Shown here in pieces: positions 6,102-33,600 of a stretch of DNA of 33,600 bases. The stretch is from contig JAIUMN010000008.1 of NCBI GenBank assembly GCA_022565555.1, positions 1 through 33,600 on the forward strand, given 5' to 3'. A program made the translations under genes and the position numbers. The first letter of the stretch is position 1. The number at the start of each line of letters is the position of its first letter. The notes beneath the pieces were generated by a model. The model saw only the letters and a program-made list of their open reading frames with translations. It was not told the DNA's origin and ran no database searches. Source of the stretch: Candidatus Altimarinota bacterium (GTDB taxonomy: Bacteria > Patescibacteriota > Gracilibacteria > BD1-5 > UBA6164).

Positions 6102-6136
6102 GGTATATCATAGTATTACCCCCTTTTTTTCTTTAC

Positions 6137-8317
6137 ATGAATTATCATATACTTCATAAGTTTAAAAAATACCTATTACTTCTCAGTATTATACTTTTTT
6201 TTCTCACTTGAAGTCATCTCTCATACACCTATCTCACACATGATGCTGATTTTGAAGCAATCCCAGGTGGTACTATTTCTGAGGCTATTGTATGAAGCTT
6301 TCCTCACTTCAATCCACTCCTTCCATCAAGTGATCATAATAGCTATATTAATGGTCTCTTATATCGATCACTCTTAAATTATGATCAGGAAAGCAAAAGA
6401 TTTACTTCAGATATTGCAAGTTGTAATCTTGAAAAACTTTGAAGTATAGAGTGTGTTCTTGAGGAAAATATCCGCTGGTCTAATGGTCAAAATATTACAG
6501 CTGATGATATAATCGCAACCTATGATATAATCAGACAAACATGAGTTCATCCCCTCTACAGCTCACTTCTTGAAAACGTAAGTATAAGGAAAAATGGAAA
6601 TGTTATTAGCTTTACGACTTGAACTCGAGATATCAATATTCTTTCTCTATTCTTACAGCCAATTCTTCCAAAAAGTATTGTGGATACGCTTAATAGCGAA
6701 ACAGTTGAATGAAAACTCTCAGATGTAAATGGTGTGTTTTCTTGAATGTTTACTGTATCCAATATTATCATAGATGAAACAACTGGAGTATCACGCATCA
6801 CTCTTGAACGTAATAATAATTATTCTCAAAATCCTACCTATATTGAATATCTTATCATCAATCTGTTCCGTGATGAAAATCATCTCTTACAAAACAGAAG
6901 TAGTTCATTTAATATAAAATATGACCGAAATTGAATTATAGCAAACTCTATACCAAGACTACAGTCTCATCACTTTATAGTTCCGCAATTTACTTCACTT
7001 TTTTATAATACCCAAAATATTGATTTACAACTAAGGAGTCATCTTAATACATTAATAAAACGAGAAGGTCTTGTCAGCTGACTTTGAAATACGAAAGTTG
7101 AGGCAATATATAATCCATTTTTTAGTGAAAGACTTATAGAAAAACAACAAGAAGATAACTTTTCTTTTGAGTCATACTTAAATTCAAGATGATATTATAG
7201 TAAAAATGAACTCCTTAGACAGCTTGATGCAAAGCAAAAAATCACCCAAGAATCAGAGCTTTTCGCAGATAGTGAAGCTCAGGATACAAGACCATTACAA
7301 GAAGAACTCACTATCGTAAGAAGTCCAACAACACAAAAATATAACTTTGTAAACTCAGATAATATCCTTATAGAATGATCAGTTCCAGCTGGTGTGAGTG
7401 CAGTATATGTAAATGATTATAGACTTCAATGATTCTCAGAAGGTGATAGAGTATTTTTTTATAGACTTCTTGGAAATTTTGATTCAATCACTGATGGTGA
7501 AAATAAATATGATATATATTTTGAAATAAATGGGGAGAGGGCGCTCCAAGAAACTTTTTTTTACTACCTTATAGAAGACGAGGAGGAGCTTGATGATTTT
7601 AGAAATAATTTCTTCCGACAAGAAGGTCAAAGCACCCCGAATCAGAATACACAACTTGATGATTTATTAGAAATACAGATAAGTCGTGAAGAAATCAATA
7701 ATCTTCCTGCAAATAGGTATTATACTCCGTCATGAGAAGTATTTCGCTTAAAGCTTACTTCTGTACAAACTGATATACTTCTTACCGAAGCCCTACAAAT
7801 AGTGAGATGAAAACTAGAAGATAATTGAATAGAGCTTGAAATAGAAAGTATGAGCTTAGGGGAGCTTACAAATGCATTACGAAACGAAAGTGTAGAATAT
7901 GATATGATTCTTTTAGGTATAGATGTATGATATTTTAGTGGAAATATATTTCCTTACTTTCACTCATCACAAGTGGAAAATGGGTATAATTTATCAAAGT
8001 TTTCTAAACTATGACTTGATATACTTCTTGAAGAACTTCGATCAGAAATACTTACACGAAGTGAAGAAGAAGAGCTACAAGAGAAGATACTCAGCATCCT
8101 TGAAGAGGAGCAACTTATGAAAACACTTTATAGTAATAAATACAAACTTCTTATAGATAGAAATATACGTAGAGAAGAGCTTCCAAAAAAATTCTCTAAC
8201 ACGCAATCGAGACAATTTATATTTAAGGATATGTATTTCAACGAATCACAAATGATTCAGTGGGATAATAAAAGTATAGTAGGTGGGTTACGTTTTATAA
8301 TTTCGAAACTTTTCTAA
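6137..8317 (+). CDS. Peptide/solute-binding protein (SBP family 5) with inserted Ig-like domain
   Basis: 726 residues, larger than typical DppA/OppA (about 500-550). A signal-anchor helix is at about residues 13-27. The SBP_bac_5 N-lobe follows with GGTISEAIVGSFPHFNPLLP, LLYRSLLNYD and ENIRWSNGQNITADDIIATY, all hallmark segments. The second lobe resumes near residue 527 (YTPSGEVFRLKLTSV) and includes DMILLGIDVGYF. Between them, about residues 375-500, lies an inserted beta-sandwich-like segment (ILIEGSVPAGVSAVYVN, then ENKYDIYFEINGE) like the Ig-like modules of CPR surface proteins, then an acidic linker. No permease or ATPase gene of an ABC importer lies next to it; the following gene encodes a polytopic membrane protein. 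It may bind peptides or act as a surface receptor. Confidence 0.82.
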
Positions 8318-8321
8318 GTAT

Positions 8322-9227
8322 ATGAGATATAATTTCTCACGTGATATATTATATCCAAGTATGGAAATAATACGGAATGATTCAAAGCTCAAAAAGTTTT
8401 ACTTTTTTCCTGGGCTTTTTTCGATGGTTTTCCTTTCACTTATTCTTACCTACCAAGGGATTTATACATATGTTGAGCTTCTCTGAAATACTGATGCAGC
8501 TCTTGAAGTTCTTTTGAATTTTTTCCACTCATGATATATTGTTGAAGTACTTATTTGACTTGCTATTGTATTTATTTCATATATCATTATTCTTCCAATA
8601 TTTGAGTGAGCCCTTATACGATACATAGATCAACGCAAGGATTGAAGTGCAAGTTGTAGTGAATCATTATGAGTTGGGATGTTTCGTTTTTATCCACTCT
8701 TTGAGTTTAATAGTATTGTAAGTATATTTAAGTTTATCTCCCTTGTAAACGCATACCTTTTTGCTTTAAGGCTCCTTGGATTAGACTTTATTTTTTCTCT
8801 CAATGTATTTTTTATGATAGCTTTTTTATTTTCTTGTATCATAAATATACTCCTCGCATATGCTCGCTTTGAGATAGTGCTTGAAAATAAGTCAACCTTT
8901 GATGCTATTGGAACATCAACACAAATCAGTCTTGTACATCTTAAAACTACTCTCAAACTCTATTTTATGATGTTCTTACTCAATATACGAGTGATTCTTA
9001 ACTTCATTCTATTTATACTTTTTCCCCTCCTTGCGCTCTCTATTACTTCATATATATGATCACTTCTTTTTACTACTATACTACTTGGTATACTTTGAGG
9101 AGTATTTTTATTCTTTATGCTCGCTTTATGATATCTTGCTTGAGTGCTTGAAGTGTTCACAAAAACAATGTGGTATAAGGCTTATAAAATCGGGAAAGAG
9201 AAGCTAGATAATATTAATAATACGTAG
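8322..9227 (+). CDS. Polytopic membrane protein of unknown function
   Basis: 301 residues starting 4 bases after the solute-binding protein stop. I count six likely membrane helices, with a cytoplasmic-type loop (YIDQRKDGSASCSESLGVGM) in the middle and a basic C-terminal helix (MWYKAYKIGKEKLDN). The arrangement is like DUF4013 or glycerophosphoryl-diester-phosphodiesterase membrane-domain proteins, but I do not recognise a motif that settles it. About ten TGA codons are read as Gly. It is the last gene of the plus-strand run and could form a pair with the binding protein. Confidence 0.7.
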
Positions 9228-9261: not shown

Positions 9262-9993
9262 TTTCATTGCCTTGAGGTGTTCTAAGACTCTCTCTGCATC
9301 TCATACTCATATCTCCTTAGCTGTAACTTTTAAAGAGATATCACCACTATAAGACTGTGCCTTGAGTTTCATAAGAAAGCTTTCAAGGGGTATGTAGGAA
9401 AGTCATCCTTCTCAAGTACCTGGAAGGATTCATTTCGTAACTGTATTTCTATCAGCAATATATACATTTTTAAGAGATGAACCAAGTACAGCAAGTGCTC
9501 TCATAATATCCATTTGTGAAGAGTTAGCTACTGCAAGTATATCGAGAGATGCATTACCTGTTACAGATTTAATCTTTTCAAAGCTTGCATTACGATACTC
9601 AGGGATAACGAAAAACAAGAAAGTACTTTCTACATTATGAACACAGAGATGTATATCTGTAGCTTTCTGGGCTTTTGAAAGTGTATGAAACCATTTTGTA
9701 TCTTTATCCATAATATGGGGAGGCGCAAAACTCAAAGAGTGTACTCAAAGTTTTTTTCCAAGCGTCAATATATCTTGAAACTTTTTTGTACTCATATCCT
9801 TTGAGGGTGCTGTGATAGATCTGATAGGGATATTATATAGTTTCGTAAGAGAGAGGATATAATCCCCATCCCAAAGATCAAAGTTCATAATACCTAATGA
9901 TATATCAAGTCCATCATATCCGGCTTTTTTTGCAAAATCAAAAACCCTATGGAGTCCATATCATGTGAGAGTAGAAGTTGAAAGTAACAGCAT
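9235..9993 (-). CDS. Sugar phosphate isomerase/epimerase-like TIM-barrel protein (AP endonuclease 2 fold)
   Basis: 252 residues. The start MLLLSTSTLTGYGLHRVFDF, followed by AKKAGYDGLDISLG, is the typical opening of xylose-isomerase-like TIM barrels. Later strands include YNIPIRSITAPS, GVHSLSFAPP and ATDIHLCVHNVE. The C-terminal TGEGGLSYIPLESFLMKLK followed by YSGDISLKV matches the usual G-G-x-Y/L-x-x-x-L end of the family, where SLKV replaces the common SLE. The metal-binding residues are only partly visible (H and E in VHNVE). Substrate unknown. It follows the serS terminator, so it is likely a separate unit. TGA is read as Gly in the first strand and in the TGEGG loop. Confidence 0.75.
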
Positions 9994-10029
9994 ATATATA
10001 GATTAAATAGCTACTAAAAATATAATACT

Positions 10030-10069
10030 ATAAAATACCTCTCTTTTCAAAAAAAGAGAGGTATTTTAT
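10030..10069 (-). terminator. Rho-independent terminator after serS
   Basis: An 18-base perfect stem (ATAAAATACCTCTCTTTT with its complement at 10052-10069) around a 4-base loop, 17 bases beyond the serS stop. The A/T-rich base of the stem supplies a U tract on either strand. Confidence 0.8.
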
Positions 10070-10085
10070 GTAAAAGATGCTAAAA

Positions 10086-11393
<1,308 letters not shown>

Positions 11394-18974: not shown

Positions 18975-20186
18975 ATGATTATAAATCTCCAAAATGTATT
19001 TTTCTCAGAGAACATAGAGCAAATCGAAAAGCTTATTGATGAAAATCCTAATATCTTTCAAGAATCTAAAGACTCTCTTCAGAAACAAATCATTGTGAAA
19101 CTTATATGACTTGAAAAGTATCAGACTATTCTCTCACTTGCAAAAAAAGGTGCAATCCTTATGGATATATATGAACTTGATAGCCTCGAGAGAAGCCTTA
19201 TAGAAGTTATATTTACTAATATACTATTTTACTCTCAAGCTCTCACCACCTTTAATCACGAGAAACTTTCACAGGAAGAACCAAGACAAGAAGCCTTGGT
19301 ATTTTTTGGAGAATTCATATCTTTGATAGAAAATATCGAAGAAAATATTGCAAACAGTTCGCTCCTAAAAATAGCCCTTGAGAAAAAATTACCCCGAGAG
19401 GCGATACAACTATTAATTGATGCAGGCTGTAGAGTGGATGAAATCGATACAAATGAAAATACCCTTCTTCACTTGAAACTTACTCCAGCACAAATGGAAG
19501 TATTAATCCAAAATGGTGCACCAGTGAATCAATATAATAAAGCAAATATCTCAGCTCTTGAAAAAGCAATAGATAATAATCAACCTGAACTTGTGAAGAT
19601 ACTTCTTGAAAATGGTGCTGATATCTCTGTTAAGAATAAAAATGGAAGCTCTTTGTTTCAATTTGCTCTGGTAGATAAGTGAGTGTATGAAATATATGAC
19701 CTACTCTGTGAGTATGGATCTCCAAATTTCGATGAACTTAATAATGATCAAACTATCTTTCTTTATGAATATATAAGAAGGATTGACACATACTCAAGTG
19801 AAGTCACTTATGAGTATCTGAGAAAAATACTGGGTCAAGGAGCAAGTGTTACAACACAATGCAAATATTACGATACCCTTACTACCCCGCTCGATCTCGC
19901 TATAAAAAAAGACTTTAAAGTATTTGAAATAGTATTACAATACTATAGTGAAGATATTAATCTCAGTGATGATACAGGAAATACACTCTTACATAAACTT
20001 TGTCTACTTGATATCAACTCTGATACCAATAAAGCAAGAGAACTCTATAAAAAAGTAAAACTCGTACTTGAAAAAGGAGCAGATACAACTCTAAGAAATA
20101 CAGAAGATAAACTCCCTCACGAGCTTGCTATTCTTGATAACGCAAAAGAGAAAATCGTACAATTACTTCTTAAACATACCTCCTAA
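18975..20186 (+). CDS. Ankyrin-repeat protein 1
   Basis: 403 residues, read through two TGA codons as Gly (VKLIGLEK and VDKGVYEI). The first 130 residues are helical and degenerate. Ankyrin repeats are visible from about residue 140: ENTLLHLKLTPAQMEVLIQNGAPVN, NISALEKAIDNNQPELVKILLENGADIS and, later, GNTLLHKL with VKLVLEKGADTTLRN near the end. (The repeats are given here as separate short units of one long array.) No signal peptide or membrane helix. The gene lies 2 bases from a second ankyrin gene, so they are probably co-transcribed and perhaps arose by duplication. Role unknown: partner binding, or an effector if exported. Confidence 0.82.
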
Positions 20187-20188
20187 TT

Positions 20189-21550
20189 ATGAGTAAATCA
20201 TTTTTAATTGCCTGTGAAAAAGGAAACAGAAAAATAGCTGAAATCTTACTAGAACAAGAGGTAACGGATGTTACTTATACAGATGAAAAAGGAAGAACAG
20301 CTCTCCACTACGCAGCACATAATGGCTATGTTGAAATTTGTCATAATCTTATTACGCAAGGTGCAGATATCAACTATGAAGATCATCAATGAGAGACTCC
20401 ACTGCACTTTGCAACACTCAAAAACCAAACTCAAGTGATTAAGCTTCTACTGAATCATGAGGCAAAAACTCAGATTACTGATAAAAATGGGAATAATCTC
20501 TTACATCTCTCCACGAAAAATGGACAAAAAGCTCTGTGTGAATTATTTTTAGAGAACGGATTAGAACTAGAAGGTGCGAATAATGATTGAGAAACAGCTC
20601 TTATGCTCGCTGTAATACATGGAAAAAAGATGCTGGTAGATATGTTTATTGAGAAAAGAGCAGATATATATGTAAAAAATAAACAATGAGATAATCTCCT
20701 GCATATCGTATTGCCTTCGGGAAATATACCTATCATAACGACACTACTAGAAAATGGTATATCAATCGATGAGGAAGATCATAAATCTGTAACTCCACTT
20801 CAATATGCATGTTATAACAATAACATAATGTTGGTACGATTATGTATGGAGAAAGGAGCTAATATTTTCCAAGATACTCCGAGTGGATTATCTCCTATCT
20901 ACTATGCCTGTGCCTATAATCAAAAACAACTCGTACAATTATTTTTAGAACAAGGCTTGGATGTTAATTTTCAAATCCCATCACAAAAAGAAGTCATGAT
21001 GGATGCATATCTCAATTTTATAGAGTCACGAGAAGATATATCCTCTGATAAACTCTATGATATCTGTACAAAATATGCAAGTGGTGGTGAGAGTTTACTG
21101 CATATTGCAACAAAAAATGGTCACCTCTATATGGTACAGTTATTACTTGATAATAGTGCTGATATAGATATCCAAGATGAGTCAGAAAATACCGCTCTCC
21201 ACTACGCAGCAGCAGGTGGAAAAAAAGATATCGTTGCGATACTTATCAAACATGGTGCAAATACTGATATAACGAATATTCGTGAACAAAAAGCTCTCGA
21301 TTATGCAAATATGAAAGGATATAATGAAATCGCAGTAATCATATTATGAAGTAAATCAGATAATATACATATTTGAGAGAGTATAACTTCTCAGGAAGAA
21401 GAATCTATACAGATAGACAATAACACTACTCAACAAAGTGATGATGAAATAGATTGAAAACTAAGAAAGCTAAAAGAACTTTTTAAAAAAGAACTTATAA
21501 GTGAAGAGGAATATATAAGAAAAAAAAGTGAGCTTCTCTCAATGATATAG
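20189..21550 (+). CDS. Ankyrin-repeat protein 2 with C-terminal SHOCT domain
   Basis: 453 residues with about ten ankyrin repeats from residue 2 to 385, well preserved (for example GRTALHYAAHNGYVEICHNL and GETPLHFATLKNQTQVIKLL). After an acidic, Gln-rich linker the protein ends in a SHOCT module of about 28 residues, KLRKLKELFKKELISEEEYI. SHOCT motifs occur at the ends of varied bacterial proteins and may mediate oligomerisation. Seven or so TGA codons, mostly at the Gly of the ankyrin turn (D-x-x-G-x-T-x-L-H/M), support the code. It follows ankyrin protein 1 by 2 bases and is convergent with ruvB without an evident hairpin. No export signal was seen. Confidence 0.87.
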
Positions 21551-23273: not shown

Positions 23274-23322
23274 AAAAACTATAAAAAATACTGTGCAAAG
23301 CACAGTATTTTTTATAGTTTTT
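23274..23322. terminator. Bidirectional terminator between ssb and atpF
   Basis: A 23-base perfect stem (AAAAACTATAAAAAATACTG with G-T-G-C continuing, and its complement to 23322) around an AAA loop. It serves both convergent genes and overlaps the last codons of atpF. Confidence 0.85.
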
Positions 23323-23779
23323 CAACCTCTTTTTCTAAGAACTCTTTACTTGTATTTGGAGTATCAAACATCTTTTTATTGAGTCTGAGAGACATATCTA
23401 CGATATGAGATTTTACTTGTCAAAGCATAGAGATTCTCTCTTTTTCAAGCTCTCTTTTTCATCATTCTAAAACCGCAAGAGCATTGTCATGAGCTTCTTT
23501 GAGTATTGCCTCTGCTTTAAGTTTCGCAATATAACGAGATTCTTCAAGAAGTGCTTCAGAGCTTTTTTTAGCTGCGAGTAAAAGTGATTGTTTCTCTTGC
23601 TCTGCAAGCTGCATTTTTTCTTTATAATGTTCTTCTGCAAGCCGGAGCTTTTCAAGTTCTGCTTGTCTCTTTGCGATTCAAGCTGTAAGCTTCCTTCCTA
23701 TAAACCTATGAAAGAGATAGTAGAGTATTCCAAAGTTTATAAGTTGTGCGAGAAGAAGTCCGTAATGAAGTTCTAACAT
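23312..23779 (-). CDS. atpF: F-type ATP synthase subunit b
   Basis: 155 residues. The peripheral-stalk subunit that joins Fo to F1. One N-terminal membrane helix (YGLLLAQLINFGILYYLF) is followed by a long charged helix with KRQAELEKLRLAEEHYKEKM and ALLEESRYIAKLKAEAILKE, typical of subunit b. Four TGA codons are Gly, two of them consecutive (LEGGKRE). The gene lies 5 bases after atpE. The delta subunit gene, usually next, is not here; ssb follows on the other strand. Confidence 0.87.
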
Positions 23780-23784
23780 AGGTA

Positions 23785-24234
23785 TTATCCATTAAGAAGT
23801 CTAAAAGCTACTACGAGTCCGTAGATTGCGGAAGTTTCAGCAAGCGCAACAAAGAGTACCATAAACTGGAGTATTTGATTTTTCATCTCAGGATTACGAT
23901 TATACGCAAGAAGCGCTCCTTGTATGATTTTTCCTTCACCGTATCCGGCACCAAAACCTGCAAGTCAAATAGCAAGACCAGCCCCAAGAACATTAGTTGT
24001 ATCTGCTCCACTCATTCCTATTATCTGAAAGGCTATCACAAGTGCATAGATGACTGCTGACTCAACAAGGGCTACTCAGAGGATAGTATATACCATTATG
24101 GTATTAGTCATACGAGGTGACTTCCCCATAAGCTCTATAGCAGTTCCTCAAAGAGCTCATTGCCCCATTGCAACTCACGCTCATGCAAGTCCGACTGCAA
24201 GACCAGCAGCAAGTGATACGGCAGTAACATCCAT
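23785..24234 (-). CDS. atpE: ATP synthase subunit c, fused double hairpin with two Na+-type sites
   Basis: 149 residues, about twice the normal 75-90. It holds two complete c-type hairpins. Repeat 1 (about residues 8-72) has helix 1 with GVAMGQGALGG (Gln25), loop KSP and helix 2 with VALVESAVIYALV (Glu58, Ser59). Repeat 2 (about 82-147) has GFGAGYGEGKIIQ (Glu100), loop RNPEM and VALAETSAIYGLV (Glu133, Thr134). In Na+-binding c-rings the ligands are Gln/Glu at position 32 and Glu-Ser/Thr at 65-66 (Ilyobacter numbering). Both repeats carry them, so unlike many duplicated V-type subunits neither site is lost. About six TGA codons are glycines in helix 1 of each repeat and elsewhere. Between atpB and atpF. 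Confidence 0.93.
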
Positions 24235-24298: not shown

Positions 24299-25141
24299 TT
24301 AAGCATTTCATTGCATCTGTGCGATACGTATAAATATAGCAACAAGAAGTGAAAAAACCATTGCTTGAATAGTTGCTACAAGTAAGCCTTGTAAAACAAC
24401 AATGATTGGAAAAATAATTGGAAACTCTACACCTCCTAAGAATTGAGTAAATTGTGAACTTATACTTGAGGTTCCTATAATTACCATTCCAAGCAATACT
24501 GTTCCGGAAGTCATATTTCAAAAGAGGCGAAAAGCAAGTGATATCACTTTTGCAAAAAGTCAGAGTATATCAAGAAATGCTAAAAATAAAGATAAAAGCA
24601 TATCTGCAATTTTTACCAAAGGAGCAAGTATAAAAAATTTCCAAGCAGGGAGTTTTCCTTGATGTAAAACAAAATACTTTTTTCCTGTCAATGGGATGTA
24701 ATTAAGGAAAAAATTTTTAAATCCGAGACTTTGTCCTTGAAGAAATAACATGAGAAATATAGAGAATCAAGAAAGAGCAAGGGTGAATTCTAAACTCGCA
24801 GTAGGCAAAATAATGTAGTTTGAGAGGAGAAATCCCCCCTCAGATGTAGATCAAAAAATTGGGGCTATAAAATCTATCATCACTCCACAAAGATTTGCAA
24901 AAAGTATTACAAAAAAAAGTGTAACTATATATCACTTTACAGAGCTTTTTTCTTCTTTCCCAAGTATTTCTTCATAAAAATAATATACTTTTTCATACAG
25001 ATATTCAAACGCTACCATTATATTACTTCTTGGGATAAATAGGAATCATAATATGATAAGTATAATAATTCCGAAAAGGAGTGAGAGTCACGTAAAAATA
25101 TGAGAAAACTCTGAAAGAAAAGCAAGTATCGATTGAAACAT
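24299..25141 (-). CDS. atpB: F-type ATP synthase subunit a
   Basis: 280 residues. The stator channel subunit that passes ions to the c-ring. The essential Arg is in LAFRLFGNMTSG, and the last helix block is FPIIVVLQGLLVATIQAMVF with the usual Q-A-x-V-F/ T pattern. About eight TGA codons are glycines, including the one in LFGNM. It is the first gene of the Fo cluster atpB-atpE-atpF, 64 bases from atpE. There is a plausible promoter upstream. Its partner c-subunit is a fused dimer, so the a/c interface must fit two slightly different sites. Confidence 0.92.
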
Positions 25142-28869: not shown

Positions 28870-29301
28870 TTATTTTTTGAGATCATAAAGCTTAAGTTGC
28901 GCAATAGATTTCATAAGCATATCTTCAGCCTCGATAAACTTCTCCATATCAACCCTATCCTTTGCATGCTTATACTTCTCCATAAGCTCAAGTGCTCTTT
29001 CTTTCGCAGCCGAAGCCTGATCCATATCAACTTCTTCTATATCAATCAACATATCAGAAAGTATTTTTACTTCACTATAGTGAACCTCAAGAACTCATTT
29101 CCCTATTGCAAAATCTTCTCGCTGCTCCATATTATTCTCATCAAGGTATTTAATATAGAGAATACAAGGCTCAAGCGATGTCATCATAGGAGCATGGCTA
29201 TCAAGAAGAGTTATCTCTCATCATGTTGTCATAACAGTTACGGAAAGAGCATGATTATGAGAAAAATTTTCTCCAGAAAATGATAGAACTTTAAGTTTCA
29301 T
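28870..29301 (-). CDS. atpC: F-type ATP synthase subunit epsilon
   Basis: 143 residues. The rotor subunit that couples and regulates F1. The N-terminal beta sandwich has MTTGGEITLLDSHAPMMTSL, the epsilon equivalent of the common T-x-x-G-x-x-G-x-L-x-x-H-A-P motif, where two consecutive TGA codons encode Gly-Gly. The C-terminal helical pair (EVDMDQASAAKERALELMEK) is complete, and a regulatory role by helix extension is possible. It lies 18 bases after atpD and closes the cluster. Confidence 0.9.
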
Positions 29302-29319: not shown

Positions 29320-30711
<1,392 letters not shown>

Positions 30712-30741: not shown

Positions 30742-31140
30742 TTAAATTTTCTTGTCCATTGCTTTATTACTCAGTTCATCAGCAATACTATTTTGCTCAC
30801 GTGGGATCCAATTATATGTAATCTCAAGACCTTTACTGTGATACTTGATATCCTGAGCAAGCTGCTTGAGATACTCATTTTTTATTTTCCAGTTGCCAGA
30901 GAGCTGTTCAATTACAAGCTTTGAATCCATAGAGAGTTCAATCTGAGTTGCCCCGAGCTCACGTGCTCGTTTGATACCATAGAGTGCTCCTGTATACTCG
31001 GCAACATTATTGGTTGTAATTCCGAGATACTTATATCGTCTCTCAAGAGCTTTTCACTCTTTGTCCGTTATATACACTCCTATACCGGCTTCTCAAGGAT
31101 TCCCTCTACTTCCTCCGTCTGTAAATACTCTCAGTAACAT
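30742..31140 (-). CDS. rnhA: Ribonuclease HI family protein
   Basis: 132 residues. It cleaves RNA in RNA-DNA hybrids. Catalytic residues are visible: Asp in VFTDGGSRGNPG, Glu in TNNVAEYTGAL, Asp in SMDSKLVIEQL and Asp in SIADELSNKAM. The arrangement with R-G-N-P-G and no basic protrusion is that of the short RNase HI type (like Bacillus YpdQ). Two TGA codons are Gly. It is inserted between the ATP synthase gamma side and beta genes, a location I do not know from other bacteria; whether function or chance placed it there is open. Confidence 0.9.
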
Positions 31141-31208: not shown

Positions 31209-31598
31209 TTATTTAATCTCTTTATCTACATATATCCTAATTTCATCCTCATTATCCTGAGCTACATGAAGTGTATCTTCAGATTCATCTTGGATATATT
31301 TTTCTTTTTTATTTTCAGTTTTTTTCTTTTGAGTATAGCTCTGACTTGTATACTTTTCACCTTGGGTGTCAGAAGTAAGGGAAAGATAACATGATCTTCT
31401 CAATATAAGAGTTATAAGAAAAATCAATCACGCGAGTATAAAAAATACCATATTATATATCTCGGGATCGTAGATTGGTATATCTTTCCCAAAACTTAGT
31501 GCAAGTATTGGTATAATAAATCAAGTCAAAAATGCAATAGTAACTACATAAAAGACATAGAGTAATATATTAATAAGAATACGTGCGAGATTTGGCAT
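31209..31598 (-). CDS. Small membrane protein with two helices and acidic tail, unknown
   Basis: 129 residues. Two membrane helices (about 6-36, LINILLYVFYVVTIAFLTGF; and 47-66) are followed by a charged, Lys/Glu-rich cytoplasmic tail ending DNEDEIRIYVDKEIK. Two TGA codons are Gly (LTGF, LAGL). It starts 4 bases after the atpG stop, so it is very probably co-transcribed with the F1 genes. It has no match to AtpI or other ATP synthase accessory subunits that I can recognise, though a comparable assembly role would fit the place. Low confidence in any function. Confidence 0.7.
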
Positions 31599-31602
31599 AA
31601 TA

Positions 31603-32505
31603 TTAATCCTTAAGAGACTCTACTCAGGCAACAATTTCAGATACTTCTTTCGTAATCATCGATTGACGAGCTTTATTATAAGCGAGTGTCAATTGTGAAG
31701 CAATTTTTCCTGCATTATCTTTCGCAGCTTTCATCGCTACCATTCGAGCTGAATGTTCTGAGGCTTTTGATTCCAATAATACATCATACATCATCATATC
31801 AAGTATCATAGGTATAACTTCCGAAGCAATAGCCTCAATACTTGGTTCAATAATATAATCAGTAACGTCTGTTTCAATTTCAGTTATAATGTCTTCATCA
31901 TCAATAATGCTCATAAGATAACTCTTAATTGCAGCTTTATCAATAGGAAGGAACTCTCTTGCTACAGCAACTTGTTTGATAGAGTTTACAAAATGTGAGT
32001 AAAATACTACGATTTTTCCATACTCACCTGTCATAAAGCGTTCATAAAGAAGTTCCGTAAGACGTTTTACAAATCGAGTATCTATATTATCAGTAAAATC
32101 AGGTGAATAATCAGCAATAAGCTGGTTTCCTGTTCTCACTACAAATGAAGTTGCCTTTTTTCCAAGTGTAACATATTCAAATGAATGATCACTATGAGTT
32201 TTTGTATACTCGCTTACCTTTTTCATCACATTTATATTATACCCCCCACAAAGTCCTTTATTAGAAGTAATCATCACTGCAAGTGTCTTCTTACTATCAT
32301 TTGACTGAAAATAAGGGAGCTCTGTGAGAAAGTTCTCAACTCTTCAAAATATCTTCATCATTTCAATAACAAACTCTTTCTTGCTCATAGCAAGATCTTG
32401 GGCTTTTTTCATCTTTACTGTTGAAATAAGCTCCATTGCCTTTGTTATCTTAGCAGTATTTTTAATACTCCCAATTTTTCGTTTTATTTCTTTTGCGTTA
32501 GACAT
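31603..32505 (-). CDS. atpG: F-type ATP synthase subunit gamma
   Basis: 300 residues. The central rotor shaft. [20 protein letters not shown] is the classic start, followed by [20 protein letters not shown]. The Rossmann-like part has [18 protein letters not shown], and the C-terminal helix is [20 protein letters not shown] followed by [20 protein letters not shown]. The ending GVESLKD agrees with the family. The Gly of EIVAGV and one in IFGRVENF are TGA codons. It starts 5 bases after atpA. Confidence 0.95.
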
Positions 32506-32510
32506 AGATA

Positions 32511-33600
32511 TTATTTATAAAGTTCTGCTACCTTTGTAATGACATCCTTAAGCTTTGTTTCTGTTTCTTCAGATATCTCTTTTTTATCTCTAATATCAGA
32601 AATAATTGTTTTTTCATCATCAAGAGCTGCGTAGAGATCTTGTTCAAACTTAAGTACTTTATTTACCTCAATACCATCAAGATATCCTTTTCCTCCAGCA
32701 TAAAGTGCGCATACTTGTTTTGGCACTGGCACAGGACTATTAAGTCCTTGCTTCAAGAGTTCCATCATACGAGCTCCTCTCTCGAGTTGTTTTCGAGTTG
32801 CTTCATCAAGGTCAGATGCAAACTGAGAAAATGCAGCAAGTTCTCTATATTGGGCAAGGTCAAGTTTAAGGGTTCCAGAGTTTTTCTTCATCGCCTTCAT
32901 TTGTGCAGATCATCCGACGCGAGAAACTGAAAGTCCTACAGAAATAGCTGGTTTTTGACCAGAGTTGAAGAGATTCGTATCAAGAAATATCTGCCCATCA
33001 GTAATTGATATCACATTTGTTGGAATATATGCTGAAACATCTCCTGCTTGTGTCTCAATAATAGGAAGTGCTGTCATTGACCCTGAACCCATTTCATCAT
33101 TAAGCTTTGCTGCTCTCTCAAGAAGTCTAGAATGAAGAAAAAATACATCTCCAGGATACGCCTCACGTCCTGGTGGTCTTCTAAGAAGAAGTGACATCTC
33201 ACGGTATGCAGTAGCTTGCTTTGAAAGATCATCATAGATAATAAGTGCGTGTTTTGCATTATACATGAAGTACTCAGCCATAGCACATCCAGCGTATGGA
33301 GCAAGGTATTGCATTGCTGCAGGATCTGAAGCACCGGCTGAAACTACTATAGTGTAATCCATAGCACCTCTTCTTCTGAGATCCTCTACGATACGAGATA
33401 CTTTTCCTTCTTTTTGTCAAACTGCAACATATACACATATTACACCTTGTCCTTTTTGATTTAAAATAGTATCAATTGCTATTTGAGTTTTTCCAACTTG
33501 CCTATCTCCGATAATAAGCTCTCTTTGTCCTCGCCCTATTGGGACAAGAGCATCAATTGCCTTAATACCTGTTTCCATAGGTTCATGAACTGATTTACGA
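32511..33600 (-). CDS. atpA: F-type ATP synthase subunit alpha, C-terminal part
   Basis: About 362 codons, running off the window at 33600; the N-terminal domain is missing. The visible part begins before [20 protein letters not shown] and the Walker [16 protein letters not shown]. Later come [60 protein letters not shown], then [19 protein letters not shown] and SVSRVGGSAQMKAM. The alpha-specific Gln in the P-loop (RQVGKT) separates it from beta. TGA codons are Gly in AVGQKE and RVGGSA. atpH, usually just upstream of atpA, would lie outside the window. Confidence 0.96.

Follow-up and report, generated by a model that had tools for sequence, protein, structure and literature searches.

The window analysed here is the stretch of 33,600 nucleotides at positions 1 to 33,600 of contig JAIUMN010000008.1 (assembly GCA_022565555.1), from a Candidatus Altimarinota bacterium of the Gracilibacteria. 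Its minus strand carries an atpE-like gene (23785..24234) for a double-hairpin F-type c subunit of 149 amino acids, here called c'. The frame stays open over this length only if TGA is read as glycine (genetic code 25), and six TGA codons lie in frame. Pfam ATP-synt_C (PF00137) matches the protein in two stretches (106.8 bits, E 6.8e-31), and the NCBIfam model TIGR01260 (ATP synthase F0 subunit C) scores 61.9 bits against a cut-off of 43.95. AlphaFold2 folds the chain into four helices (residues 3-38, 40-73, 79-113 and 115-148) with a predicted local distance difference test score (pLDDT) of 92. Hairpin 1 (residues 1-73; 24016..24234, minus strand) contains Q25, E58, S59, A60 and Y63; hairpin 2 (residues 79-149; 23788..24000, minus strand) contains E100, E133, T134, S135 and Y138. 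An earlier, sequence-only reading of this DNA had described two hairpins with Gln25/Glu58/Ser59 and Glu100/Glu133/Thr134, both keeping their carboxylates, and direct reading, Pfam and TIGR01260 all confirm it.

The two hairpins are 41% identical, and the longest exact internal DNA repeat is 11 nucleotides, so the gene is neither a collapsed nor a duplicated piece of assembly. Against the closest relative, dN is 0.16 and dS is 1.9 (dN/dS near 0.08), which indicates purifying selection. c' is a real, constrained, fused gene. It belongs to a family of c subunits of Gracilibacteria and Absconditabacteria that use code 25, marked by a two-hairpin unit, by TGA read as glycine and by adjoining a clade of subunit a of its own.

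The gene sits between its own subunits a and b in a cluster a'-c'-b', referred to below as Fo'. Upstream in the direction of transcription lies a' (24299..25141, minus strand; 280 amino acids; PF00119, 2.2e-25), which has the conserved arginine in LAFRLFGNM and falls in the Na+-type clade of the subunit a tree. Downstream lies b' (23312..23779, minus strand; 155 amino acids; PF00430, 2.1e-10). The sequence-only reading had placed c' within an F-type operon; its neighbours are indeed F-type, but they form a cluster of their own outside the F1 operon proper.

Ion-binding sites

Na+ c-rings bind their ion through Gln/Glu32, Glu65, Ser/Thr66 and Tyr70, and this set is present in both hairpins of c': Q25/E58/S59 in the first and E100/E133/T134 in the second, with Tyr63 and Tyr138 at +5. 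The gap between the helix-1 and helix-2 ligands is 33 residues in each hairpin, the same as between Q/E32 and E65; the Na+ sites described for Ilyobacter and Fusobacterium share this spacing and a tyrosine at +5 (PMC3692424). In Na+ rings, the carboxylate and the Gln/Glu come from one hairpin, and the hydroxyl of Ser/Thr66 and the carbonyl of Val63 come from its neighbor (PMC2359735, PMC3692424). Because the ligands span neighboring hairpins, and a ring built of c' chains alone has hairpin 1 and hairpin 2 in turn, the sites of c' would be mixed: Q25 and E58 with T134/S135, and E100 and E133 with S59/A60. The second hydroxyl of the Thr67 type, which holds the water ligand in Na+ rings, corresponds to S135 in hairpin 2 and to A60 in hairpin 1. 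The site Q25/E58 with T134/S135 is thus predicted to hold a full Na+ ligand set, and Na+ coupling of Fo' is likely, judging from these residues. The sequence-only reading had assigned one site to each hairpin, Q-E-S and E-E-T. It was right that the ligands are of the Na+ type, but the sites would cross hairpins, and the second would lack the Thr67-type hydroxyl. Its expectation that a ring has an even hairpin number is supported, and the ring would, as it proposed, alternate two kinds of site.

Two Fo and a single F1

The genes of the only F1 lie further along the same strand of the window: epsilon (28870..29301; Pfam match, TIGR01216 over its cut-off), beta (29320..30711; TIGR01039 over its cut-off), gamma (31603..32505; TIGR01146 over its cut-off) and the C-terminal part of alpha (32511..33599), where the contig breaks off. 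The N-terminus of alpha is found at positions 2-424 of another contig of the same genome, C14. When the two parts are aligned with a relative, the right end of the window (33600) and the start of C14 (position 1) are 4 residues apart. The two contigs appear to abut, breaking inside atpA. Contig C14 starts with the alpha N-terminus, and before it in transcription order are delta, b, a single-hairpin c and a; the F1 operon is therefore headed by another, proton-type Fo. Its c, the third hairpin of this genome, carries V, E, A and I where the ligands would be and is of the proton type. The whole genome (97.7% complete, 49 contigs) thus has one alpha and one beta, yet two subunits a; a second F1 was not found in it.

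The same state recurs in relatives. One F1 with two subunits a is found in the window genome (G000) and in G003-G006, G012 and G019, and overall at least eleven genomes, from four genera, show the two-Fo state. In relatives of the genus, both Fo lie in one operon with the order a'-c'2-b'-a-c1-b-delta-alpha-gamma-X-beta-epsilon. In the subunit a tree, the Na+-type and proton-type proteins fall into two distinct clades, both supported. The type of Fo (Na+, H+ or both) switches at least nine times on a quick tree of F1 alpha, in which G062 was called two-Fo from its hairpin count alone. In genus g5, for example, G029 (proton type) and G011 (Na+ type) are sisters, and in genus g9 the Na+-type G015 groups with the proton-type G031 and G063. 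These switches indicate that either Fo can work with one and the same F1 lineage. The gene counts of two-Fo genomes are most simply read as both motors sharing the single F1.

Fused hairpin arrays in relatives and ring size

The sequence-only reading had proposed a search of Gracilibacteria and Absconditabacteria for the same fusion. It is found in both: dozens of genomes carry a two-hairpin c, including a complete Absconditabacteria (SR1) chromosome (CP006913.1). A search of 60 genomes also revealed, within the family of the window, many tandem ATP-synt_C matches about 225 nucleotides apart. Under code 25, each of them reads as one open frame with 4, 6, 10 or 12 hairpins. Twelve hairpins (900-905 amino acids) occur in six genomes of five genera, at loci L081, L107, L108, L110, L112 and L161. 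Six hairpins are encoded at L094, L099 (two genes), L100, L102, L106 (two genes) and L111, and four at L083 (two genes, 4+4, on the complete chromosome CP042461.1), L091 and L095. Ten hairpins (755 amino acids) are encoded at L104 (9929-12193), within a 971-kb contig.

The second-helix carboxylate is present in every complete hairpin of these arrays. Odd repeats are nearer to hairpin 1 of c' and even repeats to hairpin 2 (194 of 202 hairpins), so that each array is built up from the two-hairpin unit. Four of the six 12-hairpin genes have a longest exact internal repeat of only 20-65 nucleotides, a length that reads can resolve, and the count of 12 is therefore unlikely to reflect assembly collapse. 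In L108, L110 and L104 the longest repeat reaches 192, 599 and 102 nucleotides, respectively. Arrays of at least four hairpins outside the family of the window were not found among 288 genomes of the class (E 1e-6). Standard-code relatives of the same order (f2 and f3) have only single-hairpin F-type c subunits, where c was read. One of them, G043, carries an extra, separate double c of V-type appearance. Several standard-code families of the class have double-hairpin c subunits of 160-190 amino acids with hairpins about 246 nucleotides apart (e.g., G189:C1:14760-15185 and G126:C2:180966-181388).

A ring made of identical chains must have a hairpin number that is a multiple of the number in each chain. 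The counts 2, 4, 6 and 12 all divide 12, and paired 6+6 genes accompany a single subunit a, which favors a ring of 12 hairpins. For the window this would mean six c' chains and 12 sites; the argument is suggestive only, since the species behind it are related. AlphaFold2 models a 12-hairpin protein with a pLDDT of 88 and a predicted TM-score (pTM) of 0.91, and a comparison of the model with the PDB matches only two-hairpin chains. Apparently, the 12-hairpin chain of the relatives is a whole rotor ring in one protein. With two hairpins, c' itself is not a single-chain rotor; the 12-hairpin relatives L112, L107 and L161 may be.

The next-to-last hairpin of many arrays has an arginine at the first-helix ligand position, and in L112 repeat 7 has one as well. 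The hairpins bearing it are flanked by hairpins in which valine replaces Ser66. Such arrays are L112 (7367-10066), L107 (6311-9019), L083 (9749-10648), L091 (923-1924), L095 (945-1838), L102 (1282-2631) and L094 (2449-3921). From its position, the arginine could lock the carboxylate, so that one or two sites in each ring would bind no ion. Four other odd positions of L107 carry methionine. In L081, a 12-hairpin c (6135-8843) and a two-hairpin c (9932-10417) lie around a single subunit a.

Proposed mechanism and alternatives

We think it somewhat more probable than its denial that c' forms the rotor of a second Fo of the Na+ type (a'-c'-b'), whose ring works on the same F1 as the proton-type Fo. 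Six c' chains would make up a 12-hairpin ring that has 12 ion sites and in which Q25/E58 with T134/S135 alternates with E100/E133 with S59/A60. This ring would dock on the F1 that also serves the proton-type Fo, and the one F1 could act as an ATP-driven or an ATP-making machine, for Na+ or for H+. Since the organism has no known respiratory chain, the pumping of Na+ by ATP hydrolysis would be the likelier direction. If the ring is c12, about 4 ions would be moved per ATP (12 per 3). Tentatively, we extend this to a modular motor: a single F1 shared by a proton Fo and a fused-c Na+ Fo, with sister genera possibly building c12 from one 12-hairpin chain or two six-hairpin chains, diversifying the sites and perhaps locking one or two of them with arginine.

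Several observations weigh against this reading of c'. The E100/E133 site has two carboxylates and one hydroxyl, with A60 where Na+ rings have Thr67. The Burkholderia N-type ring (E30/E61/T62/M63/Y66), in which a two-carboxylate site with threonine and tyrosine is H+ specific (PMC5376962), implies that the E100/E133 site could be less selective for Na+, as far as its residues tell. The Na+ bioenergetics proposed in the sequence-only reading thus keeps its Na+-type ligands, but the two-carboxylate motif is no proof of it. The a'-c'-b' cluster is separate from the F1 operon: unrelated genes fill the 3.7 kb between it and epsilon. The sharing of one F1 is subject to a missing contig or to hybrid rings. 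The 10 hairpins of L104, the only complete count that misfits, do not divide 12 and would fit only if that assembly is one unit short. The search of the window genome for other ion pumps covered only the Na+/H+ exchanger, which is present and says little on coupling, and the H+-pyrophosphatase, which was not found in it.

One rival reading is an Fo' that is proton-coupled, or that uses Na+ and H+ both, despite its Na+-type ligands. We consider this unlikely, though it is the strongest of the alternatives. Besides A60 and the Burkholderia ring, it draws on M. acetivorans, which has two glutamates and uses both ions (PMC3692424), and on two papers that interpret the c subunits of other Absconditabacteria as H+ type. 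However, Q25/E58 with T134/S135 makes up a complete Na+ set, and a second proton Fo would be redundant in a genome that already has one. An improbable alternative is a hybrid ring in which c' co-assembles with the single-hairpin c of the other Fo, as c1 does with c2/c3 in Acetobacterium woodii (4bem). Most relatives with two Fo have both sets side by side in a single operon, but either c is encoded with an a and a b of its own, subunit a splits into separate clades, and many relatives carry either Fo alone, so that each ring works without the other.

Fo' could also be a relic, or a recent transfer heading for loss, and its distance from the F1 operon and the members of the family with just one Fo or the other agree with this. 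Nevertheless, a', c' and b' are all intact, c' is under constraint, and the two-Fo state is retained in the eleven or more genomes counted above, which makes decay about as improbable as the hybrid ring, or slightly more so. Finally, the fused gene could be an assembly artefact made from two tandem atpE copies, a danger that the sequence-only reading had itself raised, or the copy numbers of relatives could be assembly errors. Most of the genomes are short-read metagenome-assembled genomes, and the long repeats in L108 and L110 make exact hairpin counts less safe. For the window, the divergence of the hairpins, the short internal repeat and the recurrence of the fusion in dozens of genomes, including complete chromosomes, rule the artefact out. 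With four 12-hairpin frames whose repeats are at most 65 nucleotides, we regard this explanation as a whole as extremely improbable.

Comparison with known rotors

The best match of c' in both sequence and fold is c1 of Acetobacterium woodii (4bem chain J; E 5.8e-14, TM-score 0.86, 35% identity). Like c', it is a double hairpin in an F-type Na+ ATP synthase. Unlike c', which has both glutamates and its own a and b, it has glutamine for the second carboxylate, at the position of E133, and mixes with single-hairpin c2/c3; c' is therefore not of the c1 type. NtpK of Enterococcus hirae (2bl2) is a double hairpin of the same fold, but it is V-type and has one ion per four helices. An assignment of c' to V-type K/NtpK was rejected, as both glutamates are kept and the only catalytic subunits found in the genome are F-type alpha and beta. 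The enzyme is not an N-type ATPase by its scores, which stay under the cut-offs of the N-type (alternate F1F0) models (TIGR03322, 56.4 against 130.85; TIGR03305, 587.1 against 752). The c11 ring of Fusobacterium nucleatum has E32/E65 with Ser66 and Tyr70 and resembles hairpin 2 (E100/E133/Y138) (PMC3692424), but it is built of 11 single-hairpin subunits with one kind of site.

The sequence-only reading had singled out the retention of all sites as unlike the usual duplicated c. All sites are indeed kept here, but this is also known in the A-type enzymes of Methanothermobacter and Methanopyrus (PMC2359735). A fused c with all sites kept thus has a precedent, an archaeal A-type one. The double c of Methanothermobacter and Methanobrevibacter retains all ligands, as c' does, but is A-type (PMC2359735). 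Subunit K of the A-type enzyme of Methanopyrus kandleri has 13 hairpins in one chain, according to Lolkema and Boekema (2003) as cited in PMC2359735. As in the family of the window, its fused hairpins each keep full ligands, and a whole ring per chain is the natural reading, as it is for the 12-hairpin relatives. The Methanopyrus protein is archaeal, A-type and 13 hairpins long, whereas the family of the window is bacterial and F-type and counts 2 hairpins (in the window) or 4, 6, 10 and 12 (in relatives), derived from a two-hairpin unit. Among bacteria and F-type enzymes, the family of the window corresponds to the Methanopyrus rotor with its 13 hairpins. An engineered single-chain c10 of Bacillus PS3 works in FoF1 (PMC8809890), which makes natural fused rings mechanically plausible, although the PS3 ring is artificial, of the proton type and has added linkers. 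The open-licence literature yielded no report of an F-type bacterial c family of 2-12 hairpins that occurs together with a second Fo, which is not proof of absence, and no paper on the c-ring or c subunit in Patescibacteria or Gracilibacteria was found there.

To our knowledge, a whole-ring fused rotor was previously known from one archaeon only. The 12-hairpin relatives suggest that evolution repeated it in bacteria and in the F-type enzyme. With them, ring size could be taken directly from the gene sequence, and each site of a ring could be altered singly without artificial fusions. Bacteria of the Gracilibacteria and Absconditabacteria type have an F-type ATP synthase of unclear role and lack a respiratory chain (PMC8080830, PMC6851277). 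Peptides of F1Fo have already been detected in an enrichment of this group (PMC4032931). In non-respiring epibionts, the role of the ATP synthase would find a testable answer in a Na+-type Fo that shares a single F1 with a proton-type one; ring size, the choice of ion and the common use of F1 can each be put to the test.

Other genes in the window

Between gamma and beta, at 31209-31598 on the minus strand, lies an open reading frame of 129 amino acids that apparently has membrane helices and has no Pfam match; its place between these two genes is kept in much of the family. An RNase HI-like gene (30742-31140, minus strand) is located inside the F1 cluster between this frame and beta. Two adjoining ankyrin-repeat-like proteins are encoded on the plus strand at 18975-20186 and 20189-21550.
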